From assembly GCF_004322855.1 (NCBI RefSeq), contig NZ_CP036402.1, positions 1,240,001 through 1,304,000 on the forward strand: DNA of 64,000 bases, in the 5' to 3' direction. The notes beneath the pieces are model-generated. The model was not told the origin of the DNA. It was given only the letters and a program-made list of their open reading frames with translations, and ran no database searches. A program made the position numbers and the translations under genes. Position 1 is the stretch's first letter. Every line of letters starts with the position of its first letter. This stretch comes from Egibacter rhizosphaerae. GTDB lineage: Bacteria > Actinomycetota > Nitriliruptoria > Euzebyales > Egibacteraceae. Of this stretch, positions 17,706 to 40,635 are shown piece by piece.

Positions 17706-20064
<2,359 letters not shown>

Positions 20065-20136: not shown

Positions 20137-21792
<1,656 letters not shown>

Positions 21793-34780: not shown

Positions 34781-36049
34781 TTGGACCCCACCCCGCCCCG
34801 CAGGATCGCCCCGGCCGGCCCCCTCACGGCCATCGCACTCCTCGCGCTGGCACTCGTGCTGCTCGACGTCGCGAACGTGCGCGCCGACGAGCACGACGAG
34901 GACGAGACACCGGCGCCGGAGGTCGGCGAGACCCTCGAGATCGAGCGACTCGGAGGCGACGACCGCTTCGCCACCGCCATCCTGGCCGCGGAGCGCGCCC
35001 ACCCCGACGGCTCGGAGCAGGCCGTGATGGCGACGGGTCGGGACTTCGCCGACGCGCTGGTGGCGACGGTGCGGTCGGCGAGCCTCGACGCACCGCTGCT
35101 GCTGCTCCCGGACCGCCTCCGCGACGACGACCGCGACGCCCTCGACGGGCTGGGGATCGAGCGCGCGGTCGTCGCCGGCGGCGTCACCCCGGTCCCCTAC
35201 ATCACCGAGGTCGATCTCGCCCGCGCGGACGTCGAGCTCACTCGCGTCGCGGGAGTGACCCGTTACGACACCGCGGCTCGTCTCGCGACCGAGGACGCCA
35301 CGGCGGGCGAGGGTGGGGCGCAGGTCGTGATCGCGTCCGGCGAGGACTTCGCCGATGCGGTGACCGGGTCCGCCATCGCCGCCGCCGACCAGACACCGCT
35401 GTTGCTCACGCGCCGCGACGCGTTGCCCGACGACACGGCCGCTGCGATCGACCGGCTCGGGCCGGACGGCACCGTCGTGGTGGGTGGCACCGCGGCGGTC
35501 GCCGACGGCGTCATGGACCAGTTGCCGGATGCCAGACGGGTCGCGGGCGACGACCGGGTCGCGACGTCCGTGGCGGCCGCGCGAGAGCGGCTCGACGAGG
35601 GCACGGACCCCAGCGAAGTGGTGGTCGCCAGCGGACGCTCGTTCCCCGATGCGCTCTCGGCCGGGGCACTGGCCGCGTCCGCCGACGCCCCGCTCCTCCT
35701 GGTCGAGCCCGCGGCCGACCCCGGAGGGGCCGCGGTGGAGTTCGTGCGCGAGCACGCCGCCGCCATCGAGAGGCTCGTCGTCGTCGGCGGGCCGAGCGCC
35801 GTGCCCGAGCAGGCCCTCGGGGCGCTCGAGGAGGCGGCCGGCGACGGGGCCGCGGCCGAGGCCCGGCACGACGAGACGGATGCGAACGGCCAGACCGACG
35901 GCGACGCCGAGGGCGACGAGGAGAGCGGGAACACCGAGGACACCGGGAACGCCGAGCACGAGGAGGGCGACGAGGAGAGCGGGAACACCGGGGACACCGG
36001 GGACACCGGGGAACGCGAGCCGGGAGCGGAGGAGCAGGCCGATGAGTGA
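34781..36049 (+). CDS. Secreted protein with three cell-wall-binding type 2 repeats
   Basis: 422 residues from a TTG with GGAGG eleven bases upstream. Signal peptide: hydrophobic LTAIALLALALVLLDVA then a likely cleavage site at VRA-DE near residue 38. Three CWB2 repeats follow: IERLGGDDRFATA near 50, LTRVAGVTRYDTA near 150 and ARRVAGDDRVATS near 250, each with the GRDFADAL/GEDFADAV/GRSFPDAL loop and a VVAGG or VVVGG strand. CWB2 modules bind anionic wall polymers non-covalently. The tail (about 370-422) has repeats of GDEESGNT and GDTGDTG. Its last eight bases overlap the mauE-like gene. Confidence 0.92.
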   Translation: MDPTPPRRIAPAGPLTAIALLALALVLLDVANVRADEHDEDETPAPEVGETLEIERLGGDDRFATAILAAERAHPDGSEQAVMATGRDFADALVATVRSASLDAPLLLLPDRLRDDDRDALDGLGIERAVVAGGVTPVPYITEVDLARADVELTRVAGVTRYDTAARLATEDATAGEGGAQVVIASGEDFADAVTGSAIAAADQTPLLLTRRDALPDDTAAAIDRLGPDGTVVVGGTAAVADGVMDQLPDARRVAGDDRVATSVAAARERLDEGTDPSEVVVASGRSFPDALSAGALAASADAPLLLVEPAADPGGAAVEFVREHAAAIERLVVVGGPSAVPEQALGALEEAAGDGAAAEARHDETDANGQTDGDAEGDEESGNTEDTGNAEHEEGDEESGNTGDTGDTGEREPGAEEQADE

Positions 36050-36662
36050 GCTCGGACTGGCCGCCGCCTGGGGCCTGGCGGCGGTCTTCCTCTGGAGCGC
36101 AGCGGCCAAGGGCCGCACCCTGCCCGCGACCGTCGAGGCACTCCGCGGGCTGCGCCTACCCGCCCCCCGACTGCTCGCTCCCGCGCTCGTCGCCGGCGAG
36201 GCCCTGCTCGCGCTCCTGCTCCTGGCCACGCCCGCGATCGGGGCCGCGGCCGCGCTCCTGGCGCTCGGCGGCTTCTCCGCGGTCCTCGCCCTGCTGCTGC
36301 GCCGCGGCATCACCTCCCCCTGCGCCTGCCTCGGCGGCGACGCGCGGCAACCCCTGTCGTGGCGGGCCGTCGCGCGGAACGGCCTCCTCGCGCTCTTCGC
36401 CGCAGCTGCGCTGGCCGCCCCCGAGCCCGCGGTACCCGGGATCGCCGGGCTCGTCGCCGTCACCGCCGCCGGGCTCGTCGGCGCCACGCTGTTGGCCCTG
36501 GCCGAACTGCGTGCCCGCACGGGGCACCTGCTCTCCCTGGGCCCCCTGCCCCCCGCGCCCCCGGGAAGCGCGGACGAACCGCTCGGGGCCACACTGCCGC
36601 TCGTGTCCGCGGGCCATCCCGGCGCGACACCAACAGGAGAGACCCCGGAGCAACGGCGATGA
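36042..36662 (+). CDS. MauE/DoxX-like redox-associated membrane protein
   Basis: 206 residues. The ATG at 36042 lies inside the last codons of the CWB2 gene and has GGAGGAG about seven bases upstream. Four or five membrane helices; an exposed SPCACLGGD motif with Cys94 and Cys96 follows helix 3, as in MauE proteins that work with MauD to form disulfides in methylamine dehydrogenase. The C-terminal 40 residues are hydrophilic. Its stop marks the left junction of an IS110 element; without that element the stop would overlap the start of the MauD-like gene as ATGA. Confidence 0.85.
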   Translation: MSELGLAAAWGLAAVFLWSAAAKGRTLPATVEALRGLRLPAPRLLAPALVAGEALLALLLLATPAIGAAAALLALGGFSAVLALLLRRGITSPCACLGGDARQPLSWRAVARNGLLALFAAAALAAPEPAVPGIAGLVAVTAAGLVGATLLALAELRARTGHLLSLGPLPPAPPGSADEPLGATLPLVSAGHPGATPTGETPEQRR

Positions 36663-36673
36663 GATGCCCTGTG

Positions 36674-37909
36674 TCAAGCTACCGCTGGAAGTTCTTGGCT
36701 GGGGGGCAGGAACGGTTGGTTGCCGCCGTGTCGGGTGGGGTCGTAGGCGGTGTGGTCTTGCCAGCAGCGCCAGATGATGCGCAGCCAGGCGCGGGCGAGG
36801 ATGCGGGTGGCGTGTTGGTGGGTCTTGCCGGCGGCGCGGTGGCGGTCGTAGATGGCGGCGGCCCAGGGGCTGGCGTGGCGGCTGTCGGCGGCGAAGTCGG
36901 TGACGGCGTCGCGGAGCTTGTGGTCGCAGGCCCAGCGGAACGACACGACGTGGTGGCGTCCGGACTGTCGGGTGGAGGGTGCGGCGCCGGCGAGCGCGGC
37001 CAGCGACGCGTCGGTGGGGAAGCGGCCGCGGGCGTCGCCGATCTCGACCAGCAGCTTGGCGGCGCGGACCTGCCCCGAGCGGGGCAGGCTCGTGAAGATC
37101 GCCGCGTCGGGGTGGCCGGCGAGCTGCTCGCGGATCTGGGTCTCGAGCGCGCTGATCTGTGTGCGCAGCGCCTGCAGGGTTTTGACGTAGGCGAGGGTGG
37201 TGTGGGCTGCGGCAGCGGCCACCTGGCCGGTGAGCCCTTCGGGGCCGGCGTCGAGCCGGTCGAGCAGCGTCTGGGTGGGGGTGCGCCCGCTGTAGCCGTG
37301 CTTGGCCAGCCACGAGCCCAGCCGCTTGTGAGACAACCACGCGGCCTTGTCGACGTTGGGGAAGCGGGACAAAAACGCCAGGCTCACGGCCGAGTCGAGG
37401 TCAGCGAACAGGCCGACGGCGGCGGGGAACACCGTGCGCAGGTGAGCGCGCAGCTGGTTGCAGATCGCCACCCGCGCTTCGACCAGGTCGGTGCGGGCGC
37501 GCACGGCCGAGCGCAGCGCGAGGGTCTGCGCGCTGTCGGGGGTCAGGCAGACGAGCCGGTGGCTGTCGGTGCGCAGCACATCGGCGAGGACGTAGGCGTC
37601 GAAGCGGTCGTCCTTGTTGCCCGCGGCGCCGTAGCGGTCCCGCAAGTTCTTCACCTGCCGCGGCGTCACGACGACAACCTCGACTCCGGCGGCGATCAGC
37701 GCGTCGACGACCGGCCCGTCGGGCCGTTCGATCGCGACCCGGTCGACCCCGTGCTCGAGGAAGGCGCTGACCAGCCGGCGGATCCCGGCAGCGTCATGGG
37801 TGGTGTTCGCGCGCAGCAGCACCGCGCCGTCAGCGGCGATGACGCACTGCTCGTTGGTGTCGGTCGCCCAGTCGACTCCTCCGGTGGACGCGGTCATGTC
37901 ATGCTGCAT
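36674..37909 (-). CDS. IS110-family transposase (DEDD recombinase)
   Basis: 411 residues from the ATG at 37909, with AGGAGG six bases upstream. The N-terminal RuvC-like DEDD domain shows GGVDWATDTNEQ (first Asp), VAIERPDGPVV (Glu) and DDRFDAYVLADVLRTD (paired Asp). A helical linker spans about 150-260. The C-terminal Transposase_20 domain contains SLPRSGQVRAAKLLVEIGD and LAALAGAAPSTRQSGRH with the conserved serine. Uses a bridge RNA to join element and target; that RNA is encoded directly upstream on the same strand. Confidence 0.95.
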   Translation of the reverse strand: MQHDMTASTGGVDWATDTNEQCVIAADGAVLLRANTTHDAAGIRRLVSAFLEHGVDRVAIERPDGPVVDALIAAGVEVVVVTPRQVKNLRDRYGAAGNKDDRFDAYVLADVLRTDSHRLVCLTPDSAQTLALRSAVRARTDLVEARVAICNQLRAHLRTVFPAAVGLFADLDSAVSLAFLSRFPNVDKAAWLSHKRLGSWLAKHGYSGRTPTQTLLDRLDAGPEGLTGQVAAAAAHTTLAYVKTLQALRTQISALETQIREQLAGHPDAAIFTSLPRSGQVRAAKLLVEIGDARGRFPTDASLAALAGAAPSTRQSGRHHVVSFRWACDHKLRDAVTDFAADSRHASPWAAAIYDRHRAAGKTHQHATRILARAWLRIIWRCWQDHTAYDPTRHGGNQPFLPPSQELPAVA

Positions 37910-37965
37910 GTGTGCCTCCTGGCTGTTCGCCCAGCTGGTAGGCACCCGGCGGTGCTGGGACGTGC

Positions 37966-38112
37966 TCGTCGGTCGCTCACTGATCGGCGCTCTGCGGCGC
38001 TCAGCCCTGTAGCCGCTTGGCACGTCCCGGGCCGCCGGACCCCGCGAAACTCATCGTGGCCCTCGAAGGGCCAGCGACCCAGGCGGTGGTCCGGCAGGCA
38101 CCCGGGGTGCAT
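37966..38112 (-). ncRNA. Bridge RNA of the IS110 element
   Basis: Read on the minus strand from about 38112: a 5' hairpin (GCACC-CCG-GGTGC, 38110-38098); a target-binding loop with left guide GGTCGCT (38079-38073), a stem GGCCCT-TCG-AGGGCC (38072-38058) and right guide CGATGAG (38056-38050); then a donor-binding loop with ACAGGGC (38010-38004) and CAGTGAG (37982-37976). CGATGAG is exactly complementary to the right target plus core (CTCATCG); GTCGCT pairs with the left target AGCGGC through one G-U. ACAGGGC equals the element's right end and CAGTGAG is complementary to its left end (CTCACTG). Ends are approximate. Confidence 0.78.
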
Positions 38113-38151
38113 CGGCAGTCCCATGACCACCGACACGAGGATGGTGCACCA

Positions 38152-38637
38152 GTGAGCGGCACCGCCTGGATCGCGTCGTACGTCCTCCTCTGGATCGCCG
38201 TGCTCGTGCTCGGGTTGGCGGTCGTGGTCCTGCTGCGACACATCGGGGTGCTGCACGCGCGCCTCGGGCCCCAGGGCGTCCACCACGGGAACGAGGGCCC
38301 GACCGTCGGCGATCCGGCCCCCGCCGCCGGGTGGTTCGATTACGCGGGCGCCGAACTCACGCTGGTCACCTTCACCGCACCGGGGTGCCCCCTGTGCGCC
38401 GAGCTCGTGCCCTCGCTCGAGCGGCTCGCCCGCGTCGATCGCACGGTACAGCTGCAACTCGTCGACCACGGGCGTGACGAGGTGGGAGTCTTCGCCGCGT
38501 GGAACGTGAGTCAAACGCCCTACGTGGTGGCCGTCGACCGGGATGGCATCGTCCGGGGCGGGGGGATCGCGAACAGCCTCGAACAGGTCGAGACGTTGAT
38601 CGACAGCATCCAAGGAGAGCAGCGGGATGCAGCCTGA
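38152..38637 (+). CDS. MauD-like membrane-anchored thioredoxin
   Basis: 161 residues. One N-terminal helix (about 6-29) anchors a periplasm-side thioredoxin domain. LLRHIGVLHARLGPQG after the helix is a MauD trademark. Redox motif CPLC at 79-82 in TAPGCPLCAEL, and cis-proline in SQTPYVV. In methylotrophs MauD is needed for disulfide formation in the methylamine dehydrogenase light chain; here the next gene encodes a light-chain-like Cys-rich domain. The present start GTG is created by the IS110 end joined to TGAGC; the ancestral start was probably ATG overlapping the mauE stop. Overlaps the next gene by 11 bases. Confidence 0.85.
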   Translation: MSGTAWIASYVLLWIAVLVLGLAVVVLLRHIGVLHARLGPQGVHHGNEGPTVGDPAPAAGWFDYAGAELTLVTFTAPGCPLCAELVPSLERLARVDRTVQLQLVDHGRDEVGVFAAWNVSQTPYVVAVDRDGIVRGGGIANSLEQVETLIDSIQGEQRDAA

Positions 38638-39994
38638 CCACGACGCCGTCGACCGCGCCGGGACCGTCGACCGGCTCGTCGAGCGCACCAGCCGAGCCAC
38701 GCGCGACCGCATCAGCCGACGTTCGTTCCTGGGACGGGCGAGCCGGACCGCCATGGTGATCGCGGGGGGATCGGCGCTCGTCCCGTACCTCGCCGGGCCG
38801 GCCGGAGCCCGCGTCTGCGGTCAGTCCGGGGTCGCCCCGAAGTGTCCCACGTTCGACTGCGATCGAGAGTGGGGTTGGTGCTGGTACGCGTCGGGATGCT
38901 GCGCGGACGGTGCGCTCAAGAAGATCTGCGACTGCTGCGCGCCCAACACGCCGCATCCGGTCGGTTACTGCCCCTCGGGCACCCGCGTCTACTGCATCGT
39001 CGAGTCCTGCGGCGCCGACCCGCGCCTGCAAACCGTCGAGCACCGCCGGCTCACCGAGGCCGCCCCGAGCGCGATCTCGGTCGCTGCCAGCCGGCACCGG
39101 TTCGACCGCGCGGATGCGGTGGTGGTGGGCGACGGGGGCCGTTTGCTGCGCGCCGCGCAGGCGATGAGCCTCGGCGGCGTCGTCGCGGGTCCGGTGCTCT
39201 TGACGCAGGAGGGCCTCGACGCCGCGGTCGCCGAGGAGATCGAGCGGCTCGGCGCGGAGGCCGCCGTGGTCGTTGGCAGGGACATGGGTGAGGTCGCGTC
39301 GGATCTCGAGGGACGCGGCCTGCACGTCGACCAAGTGGGCACCTCGACCGACAACTCCACGGGCGCCACGCAGGTCGCGAGGTGGCACCGGGAGCGCACC
39401 GGCCAGCGCCGCGCCGTGATCGTGCTGGACGACGCTCCCTCCACCGTGCTCGCGTCGGCCGCCGCGTTCGCGCACGCGGTGCGGGTTCCGCTGCTGCTCG
39501 GCGACAACGGCACCACCCGCGACGCGCTGGAGGACATCCGTCCGATCCGCGAGACCTGGGTGGTCGGACCGGGCGCTGCCGACCGCGACTTCCCGGGGAT
39601 GCGGGCGCTCTCGGGGGGCGACGCGGCGGAGGCGGCAGCGGCGGTCGGCGACGCGGCCGACACCGAGGGCGTGCCGCTCGGGGAGGTCGTCCTCGCGCCG
39701 GAGGCCGAGGCCTGGACCGCCATGGCGGGCGCGGCCTACGCGGCCCCGTTGCTGCTCCACCAGTCGAGCACGATCGACGGGGCCACGTTCGACTGGCTGC
39801 TCAGCGCCCGCTCGCTGATGAACCGCGTGACGGTGGTCGGAGGCGACGGGACGCTGAGCGACCAGGGCCAGTGGGAGCTGCAGGGCCTCGTCAACGAGTT
39901 CGAGGTGCACCAGCTCACCGGCAGCGCCGGCGAGGGGCTGCCGGTGATCCCGCAGCCACCGGACGAGCGCCCGATCGGGGAGGCACGACGGTGA
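38627..39994 (+). CDS. Tat-exported fusion: methylamine-dehydrogenase-light-chain-like Cys-rich domain plus CWB2-like repeats
   Basis: 455 residues. Twin-arginine signal SRRSFLGRAS at 30-39 with a hydrophobic stretch to about 62. Residues 64-128 contain 12 cysteines (64, 73, 78, 85, 91, 92, 101, 103, 104, 115, 123, 128) in a pattern like MauA, including GWCWYASGCC, ICDCCAPNTP, YCPSGTRVYCIVESCG. The mature MauA has six disulfides, matching 12 Cys, but I do not see the two tryptophans that form tryptophan tryptophylquinone after the CPSGT strand, so catalysis is unproven. Residues 140-450 resemble diverged CWB2 repeats (AVVVGDG, AVVVGRDMG, TWVVGPGAA, VTVVGGDGT) and would hold it in the wall. 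Last gene before the UGA-containing membrane protein, with which it shares one base. Confidence 0.82.
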   Translation: MQPDHDAVDRAGTVDRLVERTSRATRDRISRRSFLGRASRTAMVIAGGSALVPYLAGPAGARVCGQSGVAPKCPTFDCDREWGWCWYASGCCADGALKKICDCCAPNTPHPVGYCPSGTRVYCIVESCGADPRLQTVEHRRLTEAAPSAISVAASRHRFDRADAVVVGDGGRLLRAAQAMSLGGVVAGPVLLTQEGLDAAVAEEIERLGAEAAVVVGRDMGEVASDLEGRGLHVDQVGTSTDNSTGATQVARWHRERTGQRRAVIVLDDAPSTVLASAAAFAHAVRVPLLLGDNGTTRDALEDIRPIRETWVVGPGAADRDFPGMRALSGGDAAEAAAAVGDAADTEGVPLGEVVLAPEAEAWTAMAGAAYAAPLLLHQSSTIDGATFDWLLSARSLMNRVTVVGGDGTLSDQGQWELQGLVNEFEVHQLTGSAGEGLPVIPQPPDERPIGEARR

Positions 39995-40635
39995 TGGAGC
40001 CCGCAGCCCTCGCGCTGGCCGCCCTCGCGGGCGTCCACGCGCTCTGGTCGCCCTGAGGCCTGTCGGTCACCGAGACGGTGACGCCCCCGGTCCGGGGGTG
40101 GCAGAAGGTCAGGGTGATCGCCCTCCTCGTCGGGTCGGGTGTCGCCGCTGCAGCCGTCGCCGGCTTCGCGCTCGGCTTCGCGTGGTCGCTCCTGCCGGTG
40201 GGGCCGATCGGCCCGCCGGCGGCCGCCGCCCTGGTGCTCGCGGCCGTCGCCGGTGATGTCGCCGCCCGGCGGTGGCGGGTCGCCCGTCCCCTGTCGGTGA
40301 ACCGCCAGGTCCCGACCGCGTGGTCGCAGGTCTTCTCACGCGAGGCCGTGGCGGTGCTCTACGGCGCCCGACTCGGGATCGGCCCGCTGACGATCCTCTC
40401 GTCGTGGCTGTGGTGGGCGGCGATCCTGATCGGCGTCGCCACGGGCCCGTGGGTGGCCGCCGGGGCCGCGGGCGCGTTCGCCCTCGCTCGCGCCGTCACC
40501 GTCGTGGTCACCGCCGAGGCGATCCGCGCCGACGCACCCCCGCGCATGGCCCGGGTCCGCCGGGCCGGCCCAGTCGCCGGCCTCGTCCTCGTGGCGACCT
40601 CCGCGCTCGTGGCGGGCTGGCCCCTGGTGACGTGA
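39994..40635 (+). CDS. Membrane protein with in-frame UGA at residue 21; candidate selenoprotein
   Basis: The ATG at 39994 shares its A with the stop of the upstream gene (TGATG), with GGGGAGG ten bases before. Twenty codons encode a hydrophobic segment ending ALAGVHALWSP, then TGA (40054-40056), then the same frame continues GLSVTETVTPPVRGW and five or six membrane helices to a TGA at 40635 (213 residues in all). From memory, related actinobacterial proteins carry SPCGLS at this point, so UGA replaces a cysteine. A GTG at 40078 has no ribosome site and would drop the conserved segment. Either selenocysteine or a nonsense mutation; the hairpin after the UGA favours the first. Selenocysteine machinery is not in the window. 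Confidence 0.7.
40066..40082 (+). other. SECIS-like hairpin 9 nt after the in-frame UGA
   Basis: GTCACC (40066-40071), loop GAGAC (40072-40076), GGTGAC (40077-40082): a perfect 6-bp stem with a five-base loop starting with G. Size (17 nt) and distance from the UGA are like the minimal bacterial SECIS as I remember it from E. coli formate dehydrogenase. A second hairpin (CCCCCG-GTC-CGGGGG) follows at 40084-40098. Confidence 0.5.

Follow-up and report, generated by a model that had tools for sequence, protein, structure and literature searches.

Why does a gene that otherwise reads as a membrane protein carry a stop codon in its own frame, 20 codons after the start? The question is raised by a locus of Egibacter rhizosphaerae that lies in a 64,000-nucleotide stretch of contig NZ_CP036402.1, bases 1240001-1304000 of a genome consisting of one 4.64-Mb contig. 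The whole stretch is called the window here, and coordinates are those of the window unless stated otherwise. The start codon, ATG 39994, shares the sequence ATGA with the stop codon of the upstream gene. The first 20 codons end in HALWSP and are followed by TGA 40054-40056, after which the same frame remains open to TGA 40633-40635 and specifies a hydrophobic, helical product. A preliminary description of the window had reported this interrupted frame, which we confirm at 39994-40635, and had proposed a candidate selenoprotein. Our analysis supports the proposal. The UGA of codon 21 is, judging from the sequences of homologues, almost certainly translated as selenocysteine (Sec). The best explanation of the locus as a whole, to which we assign a probability of about 0.9, is a selenoprotein remotely related to CcdA/DsbD, for which we infer redox work. 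The gene and its recoding site are as follows.

39994..40635, plus strand: putative selenoprotein gene, encoding a CcdA/DsbD-like polytopic membrane protein of 213 amino acids with Sec as residue 21 (assigned by sequence analysis)
40054..40056, plus strand: in-frame UGA predicted to be read as Sec, motif WSP-U-G (assigned from homologue codons at the aligned site)

Homologues of the protein were collected in several searches. A single-sequence search with the window protein found no related loci. A search of 60 relatives yielded 21 homologues including the query, with one UGA apiece, at WSP-UGA-G; one further, partial match (L043) does not extend over the recoding site. In a profile search the family was found in 67 of the 396 sampled Actinomycetota genomes, mainly in the UGA form: among the 75 gene copies that cover the aligned site, the codon is TGA in 67, TGC (cysteine, Cys) in 8 and any other in none (six matches not covering the site were left out of this count). 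A second scan, restricted to Cys codons by design, revealed 55 Cys-form loci in Acidimicrobiia, Microthrix, Aquihabitans, Nakamurella, Jatrophihabitans and Solirubrobacterales. In the 53 of these that are readable in full, the codon is TGC (36) or TGT (17), and the commonest form is WSPCGLSM, so that the SPCGLS given in the preliminary description is a real sequence. The alignment of position 21 called for there thus contains UGA or Cys only. The recurrence of UGA in 67 gene copies from independent genomes excludes a sequencing error, and the TGA of the window is not a misread base.

Four highly divergent UGA homologues (L117, L118, L115 and L116), with the sites LPUGPNAIYGIASS and GUGxSMN, keep Sec and the hairpin described below despite the altered flanking motif, and perhaps represent separate subfamilies. 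One genome (G152) has a family member of each form, Cys and UGA (L099 and L115). Searches for viral and for plasmid homologues of the membrane selenoprotein found none.

The machinery needed for Sec insertion is present in the host genome, which encodes SelA (match at 5e-127), SelB (9e-88, above cut-off), SelD (above cut-off) and a tRNA-Sec that scores above the Rfam threshold and has the anticodon UCA. The preliminary description had named three findings that would speak against a selenoprotein, namely a genome without the Sec genes, homologues lacking Cys or Sec at the site and a TGA that is really another codon; none of them was encountered. In the phylum sample 55 genomes have the UGA form, and SelA was detected in 52 of them; it was detected in 0 of the 7 genomes with the Cys form only, on a background of 231/396 (Fisher p of 2e-7 for the comparison with the Cys genomes and 2e-10 for that with all other genomes, both uncorrected for relatedness). 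The UGA form is spread over many families.

In four genomes (G028, G029, G024 and G026) selD contains no UGA, yet the UGA membrane protein is kept; it may be one of the few reasons why they retain the Sec system. On contig C35 of genome G045 (L127 region), selD (20490-21428, plus strand) and the UGA membrane gene (18298-18942, minus strand) lie about 1.5 kb apart.

Bacterial Sec insertion sequences (bSECIS) follow published rules: an apical loop of 3-9 nt with G in one of its first two positions, located 16-37 nt from the UGA, and a folding energy of at most -7.5 kcal/mol (PMC13188914). Two hairpins follow the UGA in tandem.

40066..40082, plus strand: hairpin 1 (HP1), GUCACC-GAGAC-GGUGAC, a conserved companion in tandem with the SECIS, starting 9 nt past the UGA (folding, covariation)
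40083..40099, plus strand: hairpin 2 (HP2), GCCCCCG-GUC-CGGGGGU, the probable SECIS, directly 3' of HP1, with a 7-bp stem and the apical loop GUC at 40090-40092 (covariation, bSECIS rules)

HP2 satisfies every rule, with its GUC loop 33 nt from the UGA and an energy of -12.2 kcal/mol (-9.2 kcal/mol for HP1, each hairpin folded alone). For the single sequence, folding energy by itself stays within the range of chance (z about -0.3 to -1.6), and most energy z-scores of the whole 48-nt element are not significant either. Covariation and a model-based scan were therefore needed. In the strict scan a qualifying hairpin was found in 58 of the 67 UGA genes versus 16.8 expected, the expectation being obtained by recoding the peptides synonymously with the codon usage of the family. 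None of the 8 Cys genes has a qualifying hairpin, and 3 of the 53 further Cys genes pass, compared to 3.4 expected. Taken over both hairpins, pairing reaches 91.6% in an alignment of 34 UGA genes, and two-sided changes are seen in 9 of 14 pairs; HP2 alone has double changes in 6 of its 8 pairs. The covariation score of the whole structure is 0.391, compared to 0.127 for shuffled alignments and at most 0.139 when the partner is slid, and RNAalifold recovers both hairpins unaided. Whole pairs of HP2 flip by subfamily, columns 30/40 being G-C in 10 sequences and C-G in 23. In another subfamily the sequence is CUCCCC-GGUC-GGGGAG and the distance from the UGA to the loop 29 nt. An Rfam scan returned only sub-threshold DnaX-like matches, located upstream.

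An internal control is provided by selD of the same genome, which belongs to an established selenoprotein family and has a single in-frame UGA of its own (motif HGAG-U-ACK).

C1:795781-796701 of the genome, minus strand: UGA-containing selD (L018; SelD profile above cut-off)

Two tandem hairpins follow this UGA as well, and the second, at +27 to +43 with a GUC loop 33 nt from the UGA, is identical to HP2 of the window gene in position and loop. The tandem layout was observed in all 20 UGA-containing selD genes examined (from the host and 19 relatives), the second loop being 32-33 nt from the UGA. The SelB of this lineage likely recognizes the tandem element in both selD and the membrane-protein gene.

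The relation of the encoded protein to CcdA/DsbD is remote. Pfam models DsbD_2 and DsbD_TM match 11 and 4 of 21 members, respectively (best values 4.6e-7 and 3.8e-6), with members L028 and L025 narrowly below the cut-off. An hhalign comparison with CcdA proteins of related organisms gave an E of 2e-6, with the Sec column aligned to the first of the two catalytic Cys in CcdA. A structure model built from alignment A6 (37 sequences; pLDDT 80, pTM 0.78) has CcdA 5vkv as its top Foldseek match, a weak one (E 0.036, prob 0.92, TM 0.32), and a sequence search of the PDB returned no match. Residue 21 falls in the first membrane helix. No other conserved Cys column is present in alignments A1 or A6, and the family thus lacks the catalytic Cys pair (helices 1 and 4) that defines CcdA. 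For this reason we do not class it as CcdA, though its working mode is plausibly CcdA-like. With one conserved redox residue an internal disulfide of the CcdA type is impossible, and the function proposed below is inferred.

The gene stands at the end of a cluster with the following order.

34781..36049, plus strand: exported protein with CWB2 repeats, first gene of the cluster (open reading frame (ORF) matching the corresponding neighbour region in relative L125)
36042..36662, plus strand: MauE family membrane protein with a CxC motif, SPCACLG (PF07291, 7.6e-21)
36663-38151: IS110-type insertion, with the transposase at 36674-38023 on the minus strand (labelled by the appearance of the protein)
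38152..38637, plus strand: MauD-like membrane-anchored thioredoxin-fold protein with a CPLC motif (TIGR02661, 2e-23, below cut-off)
38627..39994, plus strand: Cys-rich protein (12 Cys) exported by the twin-arginine translocation (Tat) pathway, with a MauA-like domain and CWB2 repeats (TIGR02659, 1.1e-5; TAT signal, 0.016; CWB2, 4.9e-5)

The preliminary description had called all neighbours thiol-redox genes. This holds for the MauE, MauD-like and Tat-exported Cys-rich proteins, while "all" is slightly generous. The MauA (TIGR02659) match of the Cys-rich protein is weak, 25.4 against a cut-off of 196.85. In relatives L125 and L139 the MauD-like and MauA-like genes adjoin as they do in the window; in L125 mauE and mauD abut with no insertion between them, and the insertion thus splits the operon in this genome. 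ORF similarity clustering, in which some boundaries are rough, placed MauE-like, MauD-like, small conserved and Tat Cys-rich proteins next to the gene at about 40 of the 76 loci, and this set of neighbours is common to Sec-form and Cys-form loci. The cluster points to disulfide chemistry on the exported Cys-rich protein, which is a candidate redox client.

A conserved protein of about 160 amino acids travels with the cluster in about 39 loci (in L172 at -2608 to -2113 relative to the gene; PTVGDEETYPVAHFATFALPAEVGDFGSGAVNLMG...) and has no Pfam or NCBIfam match. In many relatives (in L187 at -1513 to -109 relative to the gene) the Tat Cys-rich protein carries a fusion to GYWxVASDGGIFSFGDAxFYGSMGG repeats, while that of the window has CWB2 repeats instead; the head is similar and the surface domain exchanged.

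We propose that SelB, loaded with Sec-tRNA(UCA), would bind the apical GUC loop of HP2 and insert Sec at UGA codon 21 in place of termination. Recoding would yield a 213-residue membrane protein remotely related to the CcdA/DsbD transmembrane electron carriers, with Sec replacing the first catalytic Cys and the second one lost. Most likely this protein would serve in thiol-disulfide (selenenyl-sulfide) exchange, across the membrane or at it, with the MauD-like protein and MauE as partners, and would thereby form or correct disulfides in the MauA-like Cys-rich protein that the operon also encodes and the Tat pathway exports. Such an electron-transfer role and such partners are the most likely ones given the fold family and the conserved cluster. 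Tentatively, the proposal can be extended to a widespread actinobacterial membrane selenoprotein, CcdA-like with one selenium in place of two Cys, whose couple would be completed by MauE or the MauD-like protein, which would serve specifically for the oxidative maturation of a Cys-rich surface protein that is exported, and which would share its tandem-hairpin SECIS with selD.

Several observations weigh against the explanation preferred here. Nine of the 67 UGA genes fail the strict hairpin scan. Three draft genomes (G243, G281 and G294) carry the UGA form without detectable SelA, probably because their assemblies have gaps, although the completeness of G243 is rated at 94%. The sequence similarity to CcdA is weak, and the window protein itself has no Pfam match; VIA-align of the structure model returned generic transporter folds with Z of 5-7, none of them standing out, and did not list CcdA. 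A single redox-active residue is conserved. Finally, the IS110-type insertion between mauE and mauD may alter expression.

The conservation of one chalcogen residue and the many transport-fold matches of middling Z would also suit a selenoprotein that is no electron carrier, such as one whose lone Sec binds a metal or small ligand, or a transporter of the LysE/CcdA superfamily. The gene's place in a cluster that encodes MauE, a protein of thioredoxin fold and an exported protein with 12 Cys, together with the alignment of Sec with the CcdA redox Cys, makes this less likely, and we lean towards a redox role of the membrane selenoprotein.

The preliminary description had taken 40066-40082, a hairpin that is present exactly as it reported, for the SECIS. 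Conservation of this hairpin, HP1, is borne out, and it covaries as well, with 91.7% of cells paired. As the SECIS it is improbable, since its loop lies 15 nt from the UGA, below the range of the rules, and starts with G-A rather than G-G/U; the loop sequence varies and the register shifts between subfamilies. HP2, overlooked earlier, obeys all rules and matches selD, and is the better fit to the bacterial SECIS model.

The UGA could also be an ordinary stop, leaving a 20-residue peptide and a shorter membrane protein restarted at GTG 40078, or the mark of a pseudogene or a sequencing error. Standard gene callers would indeed annotate a 185-aa ORF from 40078. This GTG lies inside HP1 and, as stated in the preliminary description, lacks a ribosome site, no Shine-Dalgarno sequence being present. 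Moreover, UGA occupies one column in the 67 gene copies, WSP-x-GxSM is conserved on both of its flanks and Cys replaces it exactly where SelA is missing, which makes termination very improbable. General read-through or decoding by a near-cognate tRNA, for example as tryptophan, would produce the full-length protein too but is the least credible reading, as homologues have Cys and never tryptophan at the site, the gene co-occurs with SelA, its SECIS is shared with selD and genes of the family terminate at ordinary TGA stops.

The selenoprotein appears to be new. None of the 119 prokaryotic selenoprotein families and subfamilies catalogued in 2026 (PMC13188914) is a CcdA-like protein with one Sec and WSP-U-G, no family member matches NCBIfam 20.0 selenoprotein models at E<=1, and the nine new families of deep-Sep differ from this one. 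A literature search for a Sec-containing CcdA, MauE or actinobacterial family found none, Haft and Tolstoy 2025 being outside its reach. We conclude that the family is new among selenoproteins and represents a new, single-chalcogen variation on CcdA, by which the selenoproteome gains a membrane-embedded CcdA-like protein. Gene callers would end these genes after 20 codons or place their start too far downstream, and annotation would then miss the reactive residue. The family points to a possible reason for the upkeep of the costly Sec system in these actinobacteria, provides a natural set of Sec/Cys pairs for studying what selenium contributes to membrane thiol chemistry, and offers in its tandem-hairpin SECIS a clear, testable element.

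Among known systems, the transmembrane domain of CcdA/DsbD (PF02683, PF13386; 5vkv) is likewise polytopic and has SP-C/U in the first helix, at the first catalytic Cys of CcdA. In contrast to it, the present family has a lone Sec (or Cys), with no conserved equivalent of the second catalytic Cys of CcdA (WTPC), and keeps a separate RQVxxxW motif; full-length similarity is remote. TsoB (NF045694), a rhodanese/DsbD fusion-like protein with a UxxxxU motif (PMC13188914), is also a selenoprotein with a DsbD-like label, but contains two Sec rather than one, and NF045694 is matched by no family member at E<=1, the comparison being with the catalogue description and the model of TsoB. With the mauE/mauD/mauA maturation genes the locus shares, in one cluster, MauE (PF07291), a MauD-like protein and an exported Cys-rich protein weakly similar to MauA. 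It differs in that no large subunit of methylamine dehydrogenase was recognized and in the fusion of the Cys-rich domain to CWB2 repeats, or in relatives to short GYWxVASDGGIFSFGDAxFYGS repeats. SelD of the same genome is an unrelated protein, whereas the window protein is membrane-embedded with Sec in its first helix; the two are alike in a UGA decoded, as we propose, by SelA/B/C/D, in a SECIS directly downstream and in the same tandem geometry with a GUC loop.
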